64,000 nucleotides of DNA, taken from Willaertia magna. Taxonomy: Eukaryota; Heterolobosea; Eutetramitea; Acrasida; Naegleriidae. The notes under the pieces are model-generated. The model was not told the DNA's origin. It made no database searches and saw nothing but the letters and a program-made list of their open reading frames with translations. Position 1 is the first letter of the stretch. Each line of letters begins with the position of its first letter. Shown here piece by piece: positions 2,165 to 15,763 of the stretch. The position numbers and the translations under genes are program-made. The DNA is taken from the NCBI GenBank assembly GCA_902984215.1, contig CADWAF010001251.1:62001-126000 (forward strand), in the 5' to 3' direction.

Positions 2165-5100
2165 ATGTCTGAACTGAAAGATAATGAAACACCCACAAAT
2201 AACAACAATCAATCAGTGAATATCACTAACAAAGATGAAAGTGAGCTGAAACCTTCCCAATCTACCTCTACAACCGATGTTGCTGTCACCAACAATAATA
2301 ACCAATCTACTGGTGCTAGCAACACAACTTCCACAGCCAACAATGATTCCAGTAATAATAATAATAACAATACAACTGTAATAAATAAGAGTTTAAAAGA
2401 CTTTAAAATTATAAAAAAAATTGGAGGTGGTAATGAAGGAGCAGTTTTTCTTTCGGAAGTAAAGGCTGAAAGTAAGAATAAATTTTCATTAGGCGATGAA
2501 CAATTTGTAGCCATTAAATCCGTATCATGCAGTGATCCAGAAGAAATTCAAAACACAAGAAATGATTTAAATGTACTATTAACCTTAAAACAAGAAAATA
2601 TAGTTAACCACTATGACATTTTTGAAGAAAAGAAGAAGGGTATCATGCAAGAACAAACTGTATTTTATATCGTCATGGAGTACTGTGATGGCGGGAGTTT
2701 AGAAATGGAAATTACAAAAAGAAAAAAAGAACAACGTCCATTTGAAGTTGAAATTGTAAGATTATGGACAAAACAAATGTGTCAATGTTTAAATTATATG
2801 CATTCAGAAAAATTAGTTCATAGAGATCTAAAACCTGATAATATTTTATTAACGAAAAATAGAAGTTTAATTAAAGTTTGTGATTTTGGTTTTACTAGAA
2901 AAGATTCAAAATTAATGAAAAACGTTTTAGGTACAAAACAATATATAGCTCCTGAAATGCAAGATGGTAGATTATATGATGAAGCTGTAGATATTTGGTC
3001 ATTAGGTGTTTTACTATTTCAGTTAGTTAATTTATTTGCTCAAAATGAAATTCCAGATTTAATAACTGAAATTAGACAAAATCCAAATTATGTTAGAGAG
3101 AAATTGCAGTCAACTACAGAATTTAAAGATGAATTATTTATTACGATAATTGAAAGATGTTTAAAAATTGATCCTGTAGATAGAGCTGAAGCAAAAGATA
3201 TTATTCAAATGATTGAAGAGAAACGTAATTTAGAGAAATTTGATGATCAACAACAAATGAACGAATCAAATTCAACAAATGAAAGTGAAAAGAAACCAAT
3301 GGATGATGACGTAAATTATTTACAAGATATTTTACAACTTTTACAAAGAAGAGCTTTAAAACAAATTAAAGACCCATTACTTGCTATTAAGAATGAAAAG
3401 GCAAAACAATTTTGGAAAGCAAATGGTTGGGAAAATAAAAAGGAAGTTACTTGGCCTGATTTTAGAGAAGCTTATCAAGAGTTTATTAATTGGGAAAGAA
3501 TTTCAAAAAATTCAGAAAGAGGATTTAAGAAAATGGTTACTGCAAATTTAGGTTTTGATGTTGATTTAGATGATGACGGTTCTGGTATTGTTACTGTTTT
3601 GTAAGTAGTTATTATTTAATTTATAATTTATTTAAATTAAATATAGGAGTTATAATGAATTGGTAAATAAGGCAGGTTTTCCATTTGATTGGGAGATTTT
3701 AGATTTAATTCAAAATTGTTTAGCAATTGGTGATTTTGATTGGAATATTAAACCTAAAGTATTAGATGAAACTAAAGAAAGAAAAGCACAAATTGAATAT
3801 TTACAAATGATTTGTCAAAAAGAAAAATTATTTGCTGACCCAATTAGTCAAGAAAATTTATATATTGATAAACATTGTGAACCTTTAAAGATATCTTTAC
3901 AAGAAAAAGATTGGATGGATGATTTATTATCAACACCATCAACTAATTCAAGATTTAGTCAATTTTTATCTTCATCTAAACATTCAACACCTACATCAAC
4001 TATTAGTAGATTAACAGAATTTTCAAGTGATAGCTCTCCTAGTGAATTTGAAAATGTTTATAATTTTCAAAAAGTTCATGATGATGCAATGGATAAAAGA
4101 ATTAATGAAGTTGAAAATAACATGAAGGAAGTTTTAAATTTTAATGATAATGATGACGATAATCAAGAAGGAACAACTGAAAATAAACAATATATTGAAG
4201 ATGGTGGTAAATTTATAAGTGATTTAGCAAGTAATACAACAAGACTTTGTTTATTAGGCCAAGCTAGTTTTGGTAAAACTTGTATGTTAAAATATGTAAT
4301 GCTCAAGTTGGCTAAAAGAGCTTTAAGGCTAATGGAACAATCAGCATATAATCATGATAAGATATTAATTCCTTTATATATCCCTGCAGGTTTGTTTGGT
4401 TCATTCCCAAATGACGCTGATATGAAAATTAGATGTATTAGAGCTAGTGCTGGTTCAAATATTAAGAATTTTGTAAGTATTGTTATTTTTAGATTTTATT
4501 TGTTTACATTATCTAAATTAGGGTAAAACTGTTAAATATTTAGATGATTTTGAATATTTTCTTTTAAAAGCAATTGACGATAATCGTGTGTTATTTATTT
4601 TTGATGGTGTTGATGAAATAGCTAGTCCGTTACAAAAAAAGAAATTAATTTCAAGTTTGACAAATTTATTCCCAACACCTGATGATTGTACAGATAGTAA
4701 TGGTATAATTATATGTTCTAGATTAGGTGGTATAGATTTAGATTCAAGATCTAGAGAGTTCTTTTCTCAATTTTCATGTGCATTAGTTGAACCTTTAACA
4801 TTTGATATTCAAAAGAAAATTGCAAGCTCTAGAGGAATTGCAGATGAAACATTTTTAAATTACTTAAAAGGAAAATATAGAGAGTTAGCTAAAACACCAT
4901 TAATATTATCGTTGATTATGACAGAATTTATTCAAAGACGTTCATTACCAGAGGTGAGATGTAAAATATATGAAAATGCATTGGATTCAATAACTAAACT
5001 GCATTATTCTAAAACCACAAGCGATGAACAAAAACAATTGAAAATGCAAAAAACATTAAAAGAATTCTTAAGAAAAGTTGCTATCTTTTTACACAAAATG

Positions 5101-7523
5101 AGAAAATCCAATTTCTCAACAGATGACTTTACAAATGCACTTAATTATTATAGAAAAGTCCAAAGCCAACAAGCAAACGAAAATAAAGATAAAGGATCAT
5201 TATTTGCCTCAATGGGTGAAGAATTGGTAGGTAAAGGTGATGATTGGATATTTGAAGCTGTTAGTGGTAATGATTTCTCACAACAATGGAACAGTTTGAA
5301 AAGAAGTATTGATAGTGGTAAATTCCCTTTAATTGTTGCAACTGGTGAAGGAAAATATAGATTTAGTCACGTTTCTTTCCAAAACTATTTAGTTGGTAAC
5401 ACTTGGGCATGTGGTGATATTGAAACAGATTTTAGATTAAAAGAAAATGCAAAATTTACAAAATCTAAATTTATTTACTTTAAGGAAAGAATTAAACTTA
5501 AAATTGTTGATCCATTCTACAAGTAAGTATACATTTATTATTACCAATAGTATCATCAAATTATTTTAGAGAAACATTTTTATTTTGTGGTGGGGCAATG
5601 AAACAACAAGATTTTATTGCTTTCATTAAGTTTTTAAGAAAGAAATTATTTAAAAGAAATATAACATTAATTGATAGTATAGTGTATAATATGATAATGG
5701 AAAGACCTAAAGAAGAACAATCAGAATATTCTAAGATTGTTAAATCATTAGCTAGTGAAGAAAGATTATCTATTCTTGTAAAGGGTTTATTACATGAATC
5801 TGAAGATTTACGTAAAATGGCATTAGAAAGATCAGAAATGTTTAATCAAGTGTATAATGAGATTGGTGAGGCATTATTAGATCATTTAGAAGATAACGAG
5901 AATGCATCTCAAGCTATTTCAAGTGTTATTCCAAGAGGTGAACAAAAGTATACAAAGATATTATATGAAAGATTATTACAATCACAAAATAATTTAACAT
6001 TAAAAAGAAGAATAATATTTTGTTTAGGTAACTTAGCTGACAGAGGAGATGAATTAATAATTAATGAAATATTAAAAGTAATTGAAAATACACCTAAAGA
6101 ACAACATGTATTAATTGAAACATGTATTGATGCATTATCTAAACTTTGTCATAAAGGTGACTCTAAATTTATTAATAGTTTAATTGGAATGTTGAGTGAT
6201 TATAATTTAAGAGTAATTGCAAGCACAACTTTAGGAAATATTTCAAATGCAGGTGATAAATTAGTTATTTCTGAATTATCTAAGGTTGCATCAAAATGTC
6301 AAGAAGCAGCCTTATCATTAGGTAAATTAGCAGATAAAGGTGACATGGAAATAATTGAAGTTTTACTTGAATGTATTCGTGAAAATTCATTTGATGATCA
6401 TATTGTTAATGAATCAATTATTGGTGTAATTATTCCAGATATATTACCTGTTATTCAAGATAAATTATTAGAAATGTTATTAAATGATAGAAAAGCAATT
6501 GCTTATCGTGTTGCAATTGTATTAGGTTCATTAAGTGAAAGGAAAAATACAAATTTAGTTGAAATTTTATTAAATTTATTAAAGACAACTGAAAAACAAA
6601 AAGATAGAATTATTCGTGCATTAGCTTTTTGTTCTCCTAAAGAAGATCCATTAGTTATTAAAGTTTTATTGGAAGTATTAACATTACCTGTAAAACAATC
6701 TAATTATTTATTTAGAGAACAAGCTGCATTAGCCTTGGGTCAATTAGCGAAAAAAGGAGATGAACAAGTAATTGACGTTCTTTGTAAAAAACTATCATCT
6801 GACCAAGAGGAAGTTGTTGTAGCATGTTCAAATTCATTAGAAAGATTATCACCAATGAATAATGAAAAAGTATTAGATGTATTCTTATTCCTATTAAAAC
6901 ATACAGATATAGGTGTAGTTGAAAAGGCTATTCGATTCTTAGGAAGAAAAGCAGAACGTGGTACAAGAGATATTATAAGAGTACTTTTAGAAAGATTAGA
7001 AAATAAAGAAGCTCCAGAAGTAGTTAGAAGTTTATGTGCAGAGGCATTAGGTTATTTGGCAGATGTAAATAAGGAATCAATTATTAAATCATTAGTAATG
7101 ATTATTAAGAATGAAGGTCCTACATATCCTGTATTAAGATTATTCTGTTTAAAGGCTATTGGTATGTTAAAGACATTTAGAACAAATGATGAAATTTCCT
7201 CTATTATATTTGATAGTGTGATTAGTGTTAGTGGTCATCAAGATATTGATTCAAAGAAGTTTGTTAAATTAGGTATTTCAATATTATCTTTAATATGTGA
7301 TATAAGTTCGATGATTGCTAGATTGAAAAATAGAGTTTACAAAGGAGTTAAACCAATTATATTTTCAATTGTGGTTAAGGCAATAAGGTCGATACGTCAA
7401 AACTCACAAAATTATAAACTGGAAGATGAAGATGTTAATACTTTACAAAAATTAAATGACCTAGAAGCCACTTTTATACTTTTGGAAAATGCTAGTGTGG
7501 ATAATAACATTCCAAAGAAATAA
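2165..7523 (+). CDS. Protein kinase-NACHT-HEAT repeat fusion (STAND/NLR-like)
   Basis: Four exons (2165-3600, 3647-4472, 4522-5522, 5570-7523) with three GTAAGT introns give 1,738 residues in one frame. After an Asn/Ser-rich N-terminus, residues 80-350 are a Ser/Thr kinase with all catalytic parts: Gly-rich loop 87-95, Lys118, HRD 219-221, DFG 240-242 and APE 262-264. An NTPase follows, with Walker A G-x-x-x-x-GKT at 683-690 and Walker B LFIFDGVDE at 778-786; the paired acidic residues are typical of NACHT. Residues about 1110-1700 are HEAT-like helical repeats with recurring (L)ADKGD turns. This effector, STAND ATPase and repeat-sensor order is that of NLR-type switches. A stress or immune role is inferred. 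I chose the ATG at 2165 (AAAAAAATG context) over an upstream ATG at 2075. Confidence 0.8.
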
Positions 7524-14737: not shown

Positions 14738-15763
14738 TTACCACAATGGCTTATTAATCCATCTATCAATAGGAAAACGAATACTTAAATCAGCTTCTTC
14801 ATCAAAGTTATTATTGACATAATCTTTAACACCAGCTTTTAAGTATGGAAGTGCCTTCTTAAATAATTTACCTAATTTCTTGAAGAATTCTGCATCTGCT
14901 TGTTCTTCATTATCCCAATTCTTATTGACATAATCTTTTGCAGCACCTTTTAAGATATCTAATAAAAAGTTATCAGCTTCAACTTGTTCTAATCTTTTTC
15001 TTAAAATACATCTTCTACTTCTACCAATAAACTTTCTTCTTCTTGGTCCTGTTCCTGTTGGTTTAATAACTGCTAAATCAGAAAGTGGAATTCCCTTTGT
15101 TCTTAAATATGCTTTACCTAATTTTAATCCAATTTTACCAATCTTTTTGAATAATTTACCAAATTTAAAGTCTGCTGCAGTAGTAATTGCTGTTTGTGGT
15201 TTTGTGTATCTAAAAATTGCTGGTTTAATTACTGGTCTTGGGAATTTACAAACAAATCTCCATAACTTTTGAATTTCTGCTTTTGGTAAAGTTAAATCTG
15301 ATTGTGCATCAAAGTTTTGATTAACATATGATTTAATTGCACCCTTTCCAACTTGTTTAACAACACCCCATAATTTCTTCCAGAATTTATCTGCTTGTTC
15401 ATTATCTTCTAATGGAATACCTTTAGTTCTTAAATATGCTTTACCTAACTTTAAACCAATTTTACCAATCTTTTTAAATAATTTACCGAACTTAAAGTCA
15501 GCTGCTTCATCGAAATTATTATTGACATAATCTTTAACACCAGCTTTTAAGTATGGAAGTGCCTTCTTAAATAATTTACCTAATTTCTTGAAGAATTCTG
15601 CATCTGCTTGTTCTTCATTATCCCAATTCTTATTGACATAATCTTTTGCAGCACCTTTTAAGATATCTAAGAAAATATTATCTGCTTCTACTTGTTGTTG
15701 TGCACAACTGACAAATGCGACAGCGAATAGTGCAATTAATAAGATTGCAATGAAGTATTTCAT
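14738..15763 (-). CDS. Secreted precursor of repeated cationic amphipathic peptides
   Basis: 341 residues: a signal peptide (1-21, ending VSCA), then cassettes each ended by an acidic x-x-A-D or S-D spacer (D28, D54, D89, D125, D156, D198, D229, D264, D290, D325). Cassettes: A1 29-54, B1 55-89, C1 90-125, D 126-156, E 157-198 (Pro/Lys-rich, one Cys), C2 199-229, F 230-264 (Arg-rich, one Cys), A2 265-290, B2 291-325, then a 16-residue tail. C carries about +9 with hydrophobics every 3-4 residues, as in an amphipathic helix. A, B and D share the tail G-x-x-K-(D/S)-Y-V-N-x-N-(W/F)-D. This is how multi-peptide antimicrobial or venom precursors are built; membrane-active peptides are inferred. Start at 15763 (A-rich context) preferred over 15805. 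I know no named family for it. Confidence 0.7.
   Translation of the reverse strand: MKYFIAILLIALFAVAFVSCAQQQVEADNIFLDILKGAAKDYVNKNWDNEEQADAEFFKKLGKLFKKALPYLKAGVKDYVNNNFDEAADFKFGKLFKKIGKIGLKLGKAYLRTKGIPLEDNEQADKFWKKLWGVVKQVGKGAIKSYVNQNFDAQSDLTLPKAEIQKLWRFVCKFPRPVIKPAIFRYTKPQTAITTAADFKFGKLFKKIGKIGLKLGKAYLRTKGIPLSDLAVIKPTGTGPRRRKFIGRSRRCILRKRLEQVEADNFLLDILKGAAKDYVNKNWDNEEQADAEFFKKLGKLFKKALPYLKAGVKDYVNNNFDEEADLSIRFPIDRWINKPLW
14808..14962 (-). repeat. 155-bp perfect direct repeat, copy 1 (cassettes A2-B2)
   Basis: Identical base for base, by eye, to 15516-15670 at an offset of 708 bp. Both copies lie in the same gene and encode most of a two-cassette block. Flanking bases diverge at once, which points to recent duplication or gene conversion. 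Confidence 0.85.
15516..15670 (-). repeat. 155-bp perfect direct repeat, copy 2 (cassettes A1-B1)
   Basis: Partner of 14808-14962. The surrounding 61-residue A-B blocks (29-89 and 265-325) differ at only three positions. Confidence 0.85.

Follow-up and report, generated by a model that had tools for sequence, protein, structure and literature searches.

What kind of product does the amoeba Willaertia magna make from a reading frame in which nine short segments follow one another behind a signal-peptide-like start, and what would it be used for? The frame lies in a stretch of 64,000 nucleotides (the window) whose first-pass annotation proposed a secreted precursor of many peptides for killing, defence or signalling. 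It appears probable that the gene product is a polyprotein, either secreted or stored in granules. Cutting after a short recurrent mark would free membrane-active peptides, to which some paralogues would add a wall-cutting enzyme, in order to kill and digest bacterial prey.

The precursor gene

The minus-strand frame is intact from ATG to stop and does not require an intron. Splitting its product at each Ala-Asp or Ser-Asp (the [AS]D mark) yields a first piece of residues 1-28, nine cassettes that occupy residues 29-325 and an end of 16 residues (Table 1). This bears out the earlier description of a signal peptide, called here by inspection, followed by nine cassettes that end in A-D or S-D. 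Types A, B and C are each present twice, the two copies being identical at 75/78, 101/105 and 80/93 nucleotides, respectively. The tail G-x-x-K-(D/S)-Y-V-N-x-N-(W/F)-D, said to be common to A, B and D, is indeed present in them. The charge of about +9 attributed to cassette C is correct for its helix part, FKFGKLFKKIGKIGLKLGKAYLRTKG (nine Lys or Arg and no acidic residue), but not for the whole cassettes, which carry +5 and +8.

Table 1. Features of the precursor gene in the window, listed in reading direction; the last line concerns another contig of the same assembly and gives positions on that contig
Feature	Positions	Strand	Type and sequence	End	Remarks
Whole precursor gene	14738..15763	(-)	single ORF, 341 aa		identical to database protein P0001 (366-kb contig)
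Signal-peptide-like start (by inspection) and short pro-segment	15680..15763	(-)	aa 1-28	VEAD
Cassette 1	15602..15679	(-)	A, NIFLDILKGAAKDYVNKNWDNEEQAD	EQAD	net -3
Cassette 2	15497..15601	(-)	B, AEFFKKLGKLFKKALPYLKAGVKDYVNNNFDEAAD	EAAD
Cassette 3	15389..15496	(-)	C, FKFGKLFKKIGKIGLKLGKAYLRTKGIPLEDNEQAD	EQAD
Cassette 4	15296..15388	(-)	D, KFWKKLWGVVKQVGKGAIKSYVNQNFDAQSD	AQSD
Cassette 5	15170..15295	(-)	Pro-containing, one Cys	TAAD	net +6
Cassette 6	15077..15169	(-)	C, second copy	PLSD	net +8
Cassette 7	14972..15076	(-)	Arg-rich, one Cys	VEAD	net +8
Cassette 8	14894..14971	(-)	A, second copy	EQAD	net -3
Cassette 9	14789..14893	(-)	B, second copy	EEAD	single helix predicted, residues 2-34; mean pLDDT 90.3
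C-terminal end behind last A-D	14741..14788	(-)	16 aa
Unrelated cassette gene, C540 (L079; G000:C540)	4770-5504	(-)	cassette of ~35 aa, seven tandem copies, e.g. IPIGAILSGIKLGIKGYQFGKQQGWWKDA...	x-E/Q-S-D

The [AS]D mark

The window protein holds ten [AS]D where 2.4 are expected, a number never reached when the same residues were shuffled 2000 times. In a set of 20 ORFs or fragments from the same genome, 124 are found against 29.9 expected (shuffle maximum, 46 in 2000). Five of the 20 have no significant excess individually at 0.05 (C359a, p 0.08; C95, 0.12; C221, 0.22; C361, 0.16; C754, 0.79), and the marks of paralogues, since their ancestry is shared, are not independent events. The commonest context is E/V/T, E/Q, A/S, D, and the residue that follows is mostly K, L, I, F or A. 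In 11 of the 16 cassette ORFs that have a start, the first mark falls at residue 26-31, directly behind the signal peptide; the largest number of marks in one chain is 15 (C739).

A general excess of [AS]D in this genome is not seen. The 26 other window ORFs of at least 250 aa, picked mechanically, contain 59 against 83.8 expected. At the DNA level, a pattern of two E-E-[AS]-D-type marks one cassette apart occurs at three places in 19.2 Mb, all of them in the cassette family, and at none when reversed; because its codons and spacing are fixed, this pattern overlooks most family members, the window gene included. Three saposin-like precursor ORFs likewise show no significant excess (6 versus 2.9 expected, p 0.064; 1 versus 2.7; 0 versus 1.5). 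Nowhere in the 20 ORFs or fragments is an [AS]D preceded by a dibasic pair, whether immediately or with one residue in between. When relatives are compared (five overlapping pairs), the boundary Asp is retained in 45 of 54 cases and other Asp in 51 of 72, a modest difference.

Charge, selection and predicted structure of the cassettes

When the cassettes of this genome were sorted by pattern, C361 and C754 being left out, 26 C, 20 B, 20 D, 5 A, 9 basic-rich, 6 Cys-containing, 26 other, 11 short and 16 start pieces were obtained; one further A copy, from the window gene, escaped the pattern and is counted under 'other'. The first 22 residues of most B, C and D cores carry +5 to +8; the exceptions, most of them in C739, C358 and C164, reach as low as -1. 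Acidic tails are found on most B, C and D cassettes, while several C cassettes continue into Arg-rich stretches instead. Compared with 1000 shuffles, the first 18 residues are amphipathic (p<0.05) in 60 of 66 cassettes, i.e., 24/26 C, 16/20 B and 20/20 D, and in 0/5 copies of type A. The cassettes had been described as both cationic and amphipathic. This holds for B, C and D, which qualify as net-positive amphipathic helices with mostly cationic cores, but not for type A, with its net charge of -3 and p ~0.23 in the tested copy.

Some other pieces have a composition of their own. The last pieces of C782 (L013) and C164 (L027) are Cys-rich, with a C-x3-C ... C-x3-C spacing reminiscent of alpha-hairpinins. 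C266 (L010) and C865 (L026) have blocks very rich in Arg, Lys and His between [AS]D marks, 159 aa long with net +69 in the former and 151 aa long with net +63 in the latter; their composition is protamine-like.

Judged from the coding DNA, the main cassette types B, C and D are under purifying selection. Pooled dN/dS is 0.135 for C (24 copies), 0.095 for B (15) and 0.20 for D (20), at dS of 0.63-0.98; the pairs are not independent, and copies off the anchor were excluded (2/26 C, 5/20 B, 0/20 D). Such ratios at this dS indicate that the peptides are old and have been kept.

For the whole precursor, AlphaFold2 (12 sequences) predicts helices along much of the chain and no confident fold (mean pLDDT 38.6, pTM 0.25). 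A single B cassette, modelled without an alignment, is predicted to form one helix (mean pLDDT 90.3), the acidic tail alone being less confident. A confident single helix and a whole chain with no confident fold would be compatible with beads on a string, the low confidence of the chain being no proof. Neither the precursor nor single B, C or D cassettes have a relative in the PDB below E 0.5.

A gene family in Willaertia and its relatives

W. magna is a heterolobosean of the Naegleriidae; the host genus is Willaertia and not Naegleria, in whose proteomes the first-pass annotation wished to look for paralogues. The assembly searched comprises 19,240,052 bases in 894 contigs, the window gene lying on C342. 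The precursor gives 46 matches in it and, together with further cassette searches, at least 16 gene loci: C342, C699, C50, C760, C739, C357/C358 (counted as one locus by comparison with P0010), C266, C268, C782, C359, C95, C762, C626, C865, C164 and C221. C855 is a weak additional cassette locus. On C813 (L063), two similar stretches with D-type cassette fragments and no start are likely pseudogene pieces in a local duplication.

Protein searches each scored the 8000 candidates that share most words, at E <= 0.1 in the first search and E <= 0.01 in two later ones. The first returned 15 matches, namely the query, ten W. magna proteins, one of Naegleria lovaniensis (P0007) and three other records; the later two returned 4 and 13, adding P0016-P0018 and P0019. 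No N. gruberi or N. fowleri protein is named among the matches from these candidates. The first-pass annotation would have given up its reading if homologues were lacking; the W. magna and N. lovaniensis proteins and the loci listed above show that they are not.

P0003, P0008 and P0011 recur letter for letter in single frames of C50, C268 and C762. The other seven of the ten W. magna proteins have no such frame among the fetched loci, being different, split or outside these loci. The annotated P0002, P0006 and P0010 lack stretches that are open in the corresponding ORFs of this assembly (C699, C739 and C358), which may reflect false introns or strain differences. The order and number of cassettes vary between paralogues, and the mark persists. 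One scan of viral contigs, in which 203 stretches matched the pattern, confirmed no viral relative. Likewise, one pattern scan (330 matching stretches) confirmed no prokaryote relative of the fused NlpC proteins, which says little on a bacterial donor because the two short patterns came from a cassette and the enzyme start.

Fusion of cassettes to enzymes

In two W. magna proteins, P0010 and P0014, and in the JGI protein P0019, one or more cassettes are followed by an NlpC/P60 domain (PF00877; 51.7, 51.6 and 49.3 bits, respectively, the cut-off being 23). The stretches FDCSGL and GHVGIYVG of P0010 align with solved NlpC/P60 enzymes, the catalytic Cys and His regions being kept. Two of the five NlpC/P60 matches in the W. 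magna assembly (C358 and C762) lie in or adjoin cassette ORFs. The C762 match spans an in-frame stop, possibly an intron, and in P0011, the early-ending protein of this locus, Pfam itself finds no NlpC/P60. The gene model of P0013 puts a C cassette in front of GH45. This fusion depends on the annotation, since the C cassette and GH45 are separate ORFs on C95, the cassette locus at which the sole GH45 match of the assembly sits. The cassette part meets the following part at LAD or LSD in P0010, P0011, P0013 and P0014, and at EEESD in P0019. An assembly-wide scan for these two enzyme families gives no match at 13 of the 16 counted loci, among them that of the window. C754 (L032) encodes a secreted-looking SH3b and NlpC/P60 protein with an EESD mark and no cassettes, possibly a relative of the fused enzymes.

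Other precursors with similar marks

The unrelated cassette of C540 bears the same [AS]D mark as the window family (Table 1). Its precursor looks secreted; it has a Pro/Arg-rich stretch at the N-terminus and ends in a Cys-rich peptide, CVALC...CLRRC. C361 (L035) combines a signal-peptide-like hydrophobic start, an NNNLSD mark and a Pro/Arg/His-rich stretch, similar in appearance to proline-rich antimicrobial peptides, with a weak NlpC/P60-like match behind it (20.4 bits, below the cut-off). In P0015-P0018, similar marks accompany different helices as well as cassettes rich in Gly, Lys/Arg or Cys. In P0015 and P0016 (JGI), related marks flank a Gly-rich cassette of ~90 aa that resembles insect attacins but has no Pfam family support.

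Since C540, C361 and P0015-P0018 carry similar marks on other cassettes, acidic-x-(A/S)-D might be a general code by which heteroloboseans mature polyproteins that kill prey. A single protease would then free linear helical, Arg-rich and Cys-rich peptides, and also complete peptidoglycan hydrolases or glycosidases, from the products of many interchangeable cassette genes, and the acidic tails would serve as a safety catch released by acid in the phagosome. We offer this wider proposal tentatively, the balance tipping somewhat against it.

The processing protease

The family predicts a protease with unusual [AS]D specificity. Legumain was considered and rejected, the sole Peptidase_C13 match of the assembly being a GPI transamidase (1.9e-105, against 2.1e-30 for the best legumain), and caspase/metacaspase C14 has no match in the assembly. 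This absence is weak evidence because the 19.2-Mb assembly may be incomplete; the published W. magna C2c Maky assembly is given as 36.5 Mb (PMC6892926).

Alternative explanations

Several observations go against the polyprotein reading. A cut after [AS]D would leave an acidic tail on the peptide, and type A is itself acidic and in no copy amphipathic. A quarter of the ORFs or fragments have no significant [AS]D excess individually, and the boundary Asp is only modestly better kept than other Asp. Moreover, the C13 and C14 scans gave no processing protease. This last result, together with the AlphaFold2 helices along much of the precursor, would suit a protein that stays uncut, a long polycationic chain of many helices with a role in coating or clumping bacteria, LPS or DNA, or as a building material of wall or matrix. 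Such a chain seems unlikely. The model gives it no compact fold, in contrast to the confident single cassette (although low confidence is no proof); the mark persists while cassette order and number change among paralogues; and it is also found between cassettes and enzyme parts. The latter position, ahead of NlpC/P60 and GH45, as well as the finding of the sole GH45 match at a cassette locus, could mean that the cassettes are removable pro-regions, or sorting or membrane-anchoring tags, of secreted hydrolases, enzyme-free precursors being by-products or chaperone-like. We consider this less likely again, given that most counted loci lack a match to either enzyme, that a chain can hold up to 15 marks and that the cassettes are under purifying selection.

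Repeated copies within one precursor are typical of peptide signals, and to this extent the cassettes could be pheromone-like or development-related. The diversity of cationic cassettes, the Arg-rich and Cys-rich pieces and the fusion to bacterial-wall hydrolases make signalling very improbable. The secreted multi-peptide precursor first proposed for killing, defence or signalling is supported by its homologues, by purifying selection and by the hydrolase fusions, and bacterial killing is favoured over signalling because cassettes are fused to peptidoglycan hydrolases across the same mark. The window protein also scores 32.9 with the Pfam model of the frog ocellatins (PF08110; cut-off 22.7, E 6e-8), but its membership of that family seems highly improbable. 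The best stretch covers 10 residues of the 19-position model, and the score is raised by repetition, since two stretches each pass alone. The relatives P0002, P0003 and P0006 score 16.6-18.0, below the cut-off, and the host is an amoeba. Homology was set aside, the likeness being probably due to convergence.

Comparison with known systems

The membrane-active effectors named for Naegleria in PMC9928731 and PMC6723116 are the saposin-like naegleriapores. A related amoeba is reported to make several pore-forming peptides from one precursor (PMC6723116), and this the polyprotein proposed here would have in common with naegleriapores and saposin-like amoeba precursors. Unlike naegleriapores, it would consist of linear amphipathic helices with few Cys and [AS]D marks. 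A saposin-like identity or link was rejected: in a Pfam search up to E 10 the window protein matches no SapB family (SapB matches of the genome sit on other contigs), it has few Cys, and the genome's saposin-like precursors lack a significant [AS]D excess.

Insect multipeptide precursors, as described for apidaecin and ant hymenoptaecin, have a signal peptide, tandem antimicrobial units and short acidic spacers; EAEP and a dibasic RR/KR site border the ant units (PMC3415428). The window precursor resembles them in its signal peptide, its short acidic spacers and its tandem units, antimicrobial-like by charge and amphipathicity. It differs in its [AS]D mark with no adjoining dibasic pair, and no Pfam insect peptide family matches the window protein. 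With frog ocellatins and linear helical skin peptides it shares short helices, and a 10-residue stretch of type A fits the ocellatin model, but the match is confined to this one short stretch and falls below the cut-off in three matching relatives. What is left of the frog- or insect-type logic proposed at first is the tandem array of antimicrobial-like units behind a signal peptide, whereas dibasic borders are absent and kinship with ocellatins is improbable.

The link between enzyme and bacteria has a precedent in Trichomonas vaginalis, which is reported to use laterally acquired NlpC/P60 peptidoglycan hydrolases against bacteria (PMC6299479). The difference, which concerns the W. magna layout only, is that here NlpC/P60 stands behind cationic cassettes across the mark.

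In the paper on the transcriptome and proteome of W. magna, section 3.7, which deals with defence, lists BPI/LBP, lectins, lysozymes and cathepsins and names no such peptides (PMC7285305). The accessible text of the Naegleria pangenome paper refers to antimicrobial peptides in general and to naegleriapores (PMC9928731). Among the titles and abstract openings listed for W. magna, Naegleria, N. gruberi, Heterolobosea or protist antimicrobial peptides, subscription papers and preprints aside, none describes the cassette family. W. magna is described as non-pathogenic (PMC7168187, PMC7350332). A lysate of it is under development for crop protection; the origin of its activity is given as still unidentified, and lipopeptides are suggested by the authors (PMC7463879, PMC10609735).

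Proposed mechanism and significance

According to the polyprotein reading, the signal peptide would direct the precursor into the secretory pathway. A putative protease would cut after the mark, most commonly (E/V/T)-(E/Q)-(A/S)-D, and free several different peptides of ~26-42 residues. Those of types B, C and D would have a cationic amphipathic N-terminal helix, possibly kept quiet by a usually acidic C-terminal tail, which would be trimmed, or protonated in the acid phagosome, to release the helix. The freed peptides would disrupt bacterial membranes. In some paralogues, a peptidoglycan hydrolase or glycosidase would be delivered along with peptides of this kind, so that the set as a whole would serve for the killing and digestion of microbial prey; defence would be a side effect.

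In a lineage known for saposin-like effectors, a multipeptide precursor made up of linear cationic helices, punctuated by [AS]D and in part fused to enzymes, appears to be new; its antimicrobial activity we infer from sequence. Amoebae are efficient killers of bacteria, and these features suggest a home-made arsenal with which this amoeba kills the bacteria on which it feeds. With linear cationic peptides encoded by many genes, a punctuation of its own and direct genetic ties to bacterial-wall enzymes, the family makes testable how such an amoeba kills its prey, and it would enlarge the pool of antimicrobial candidates by dozens of conserved peptide sequences.
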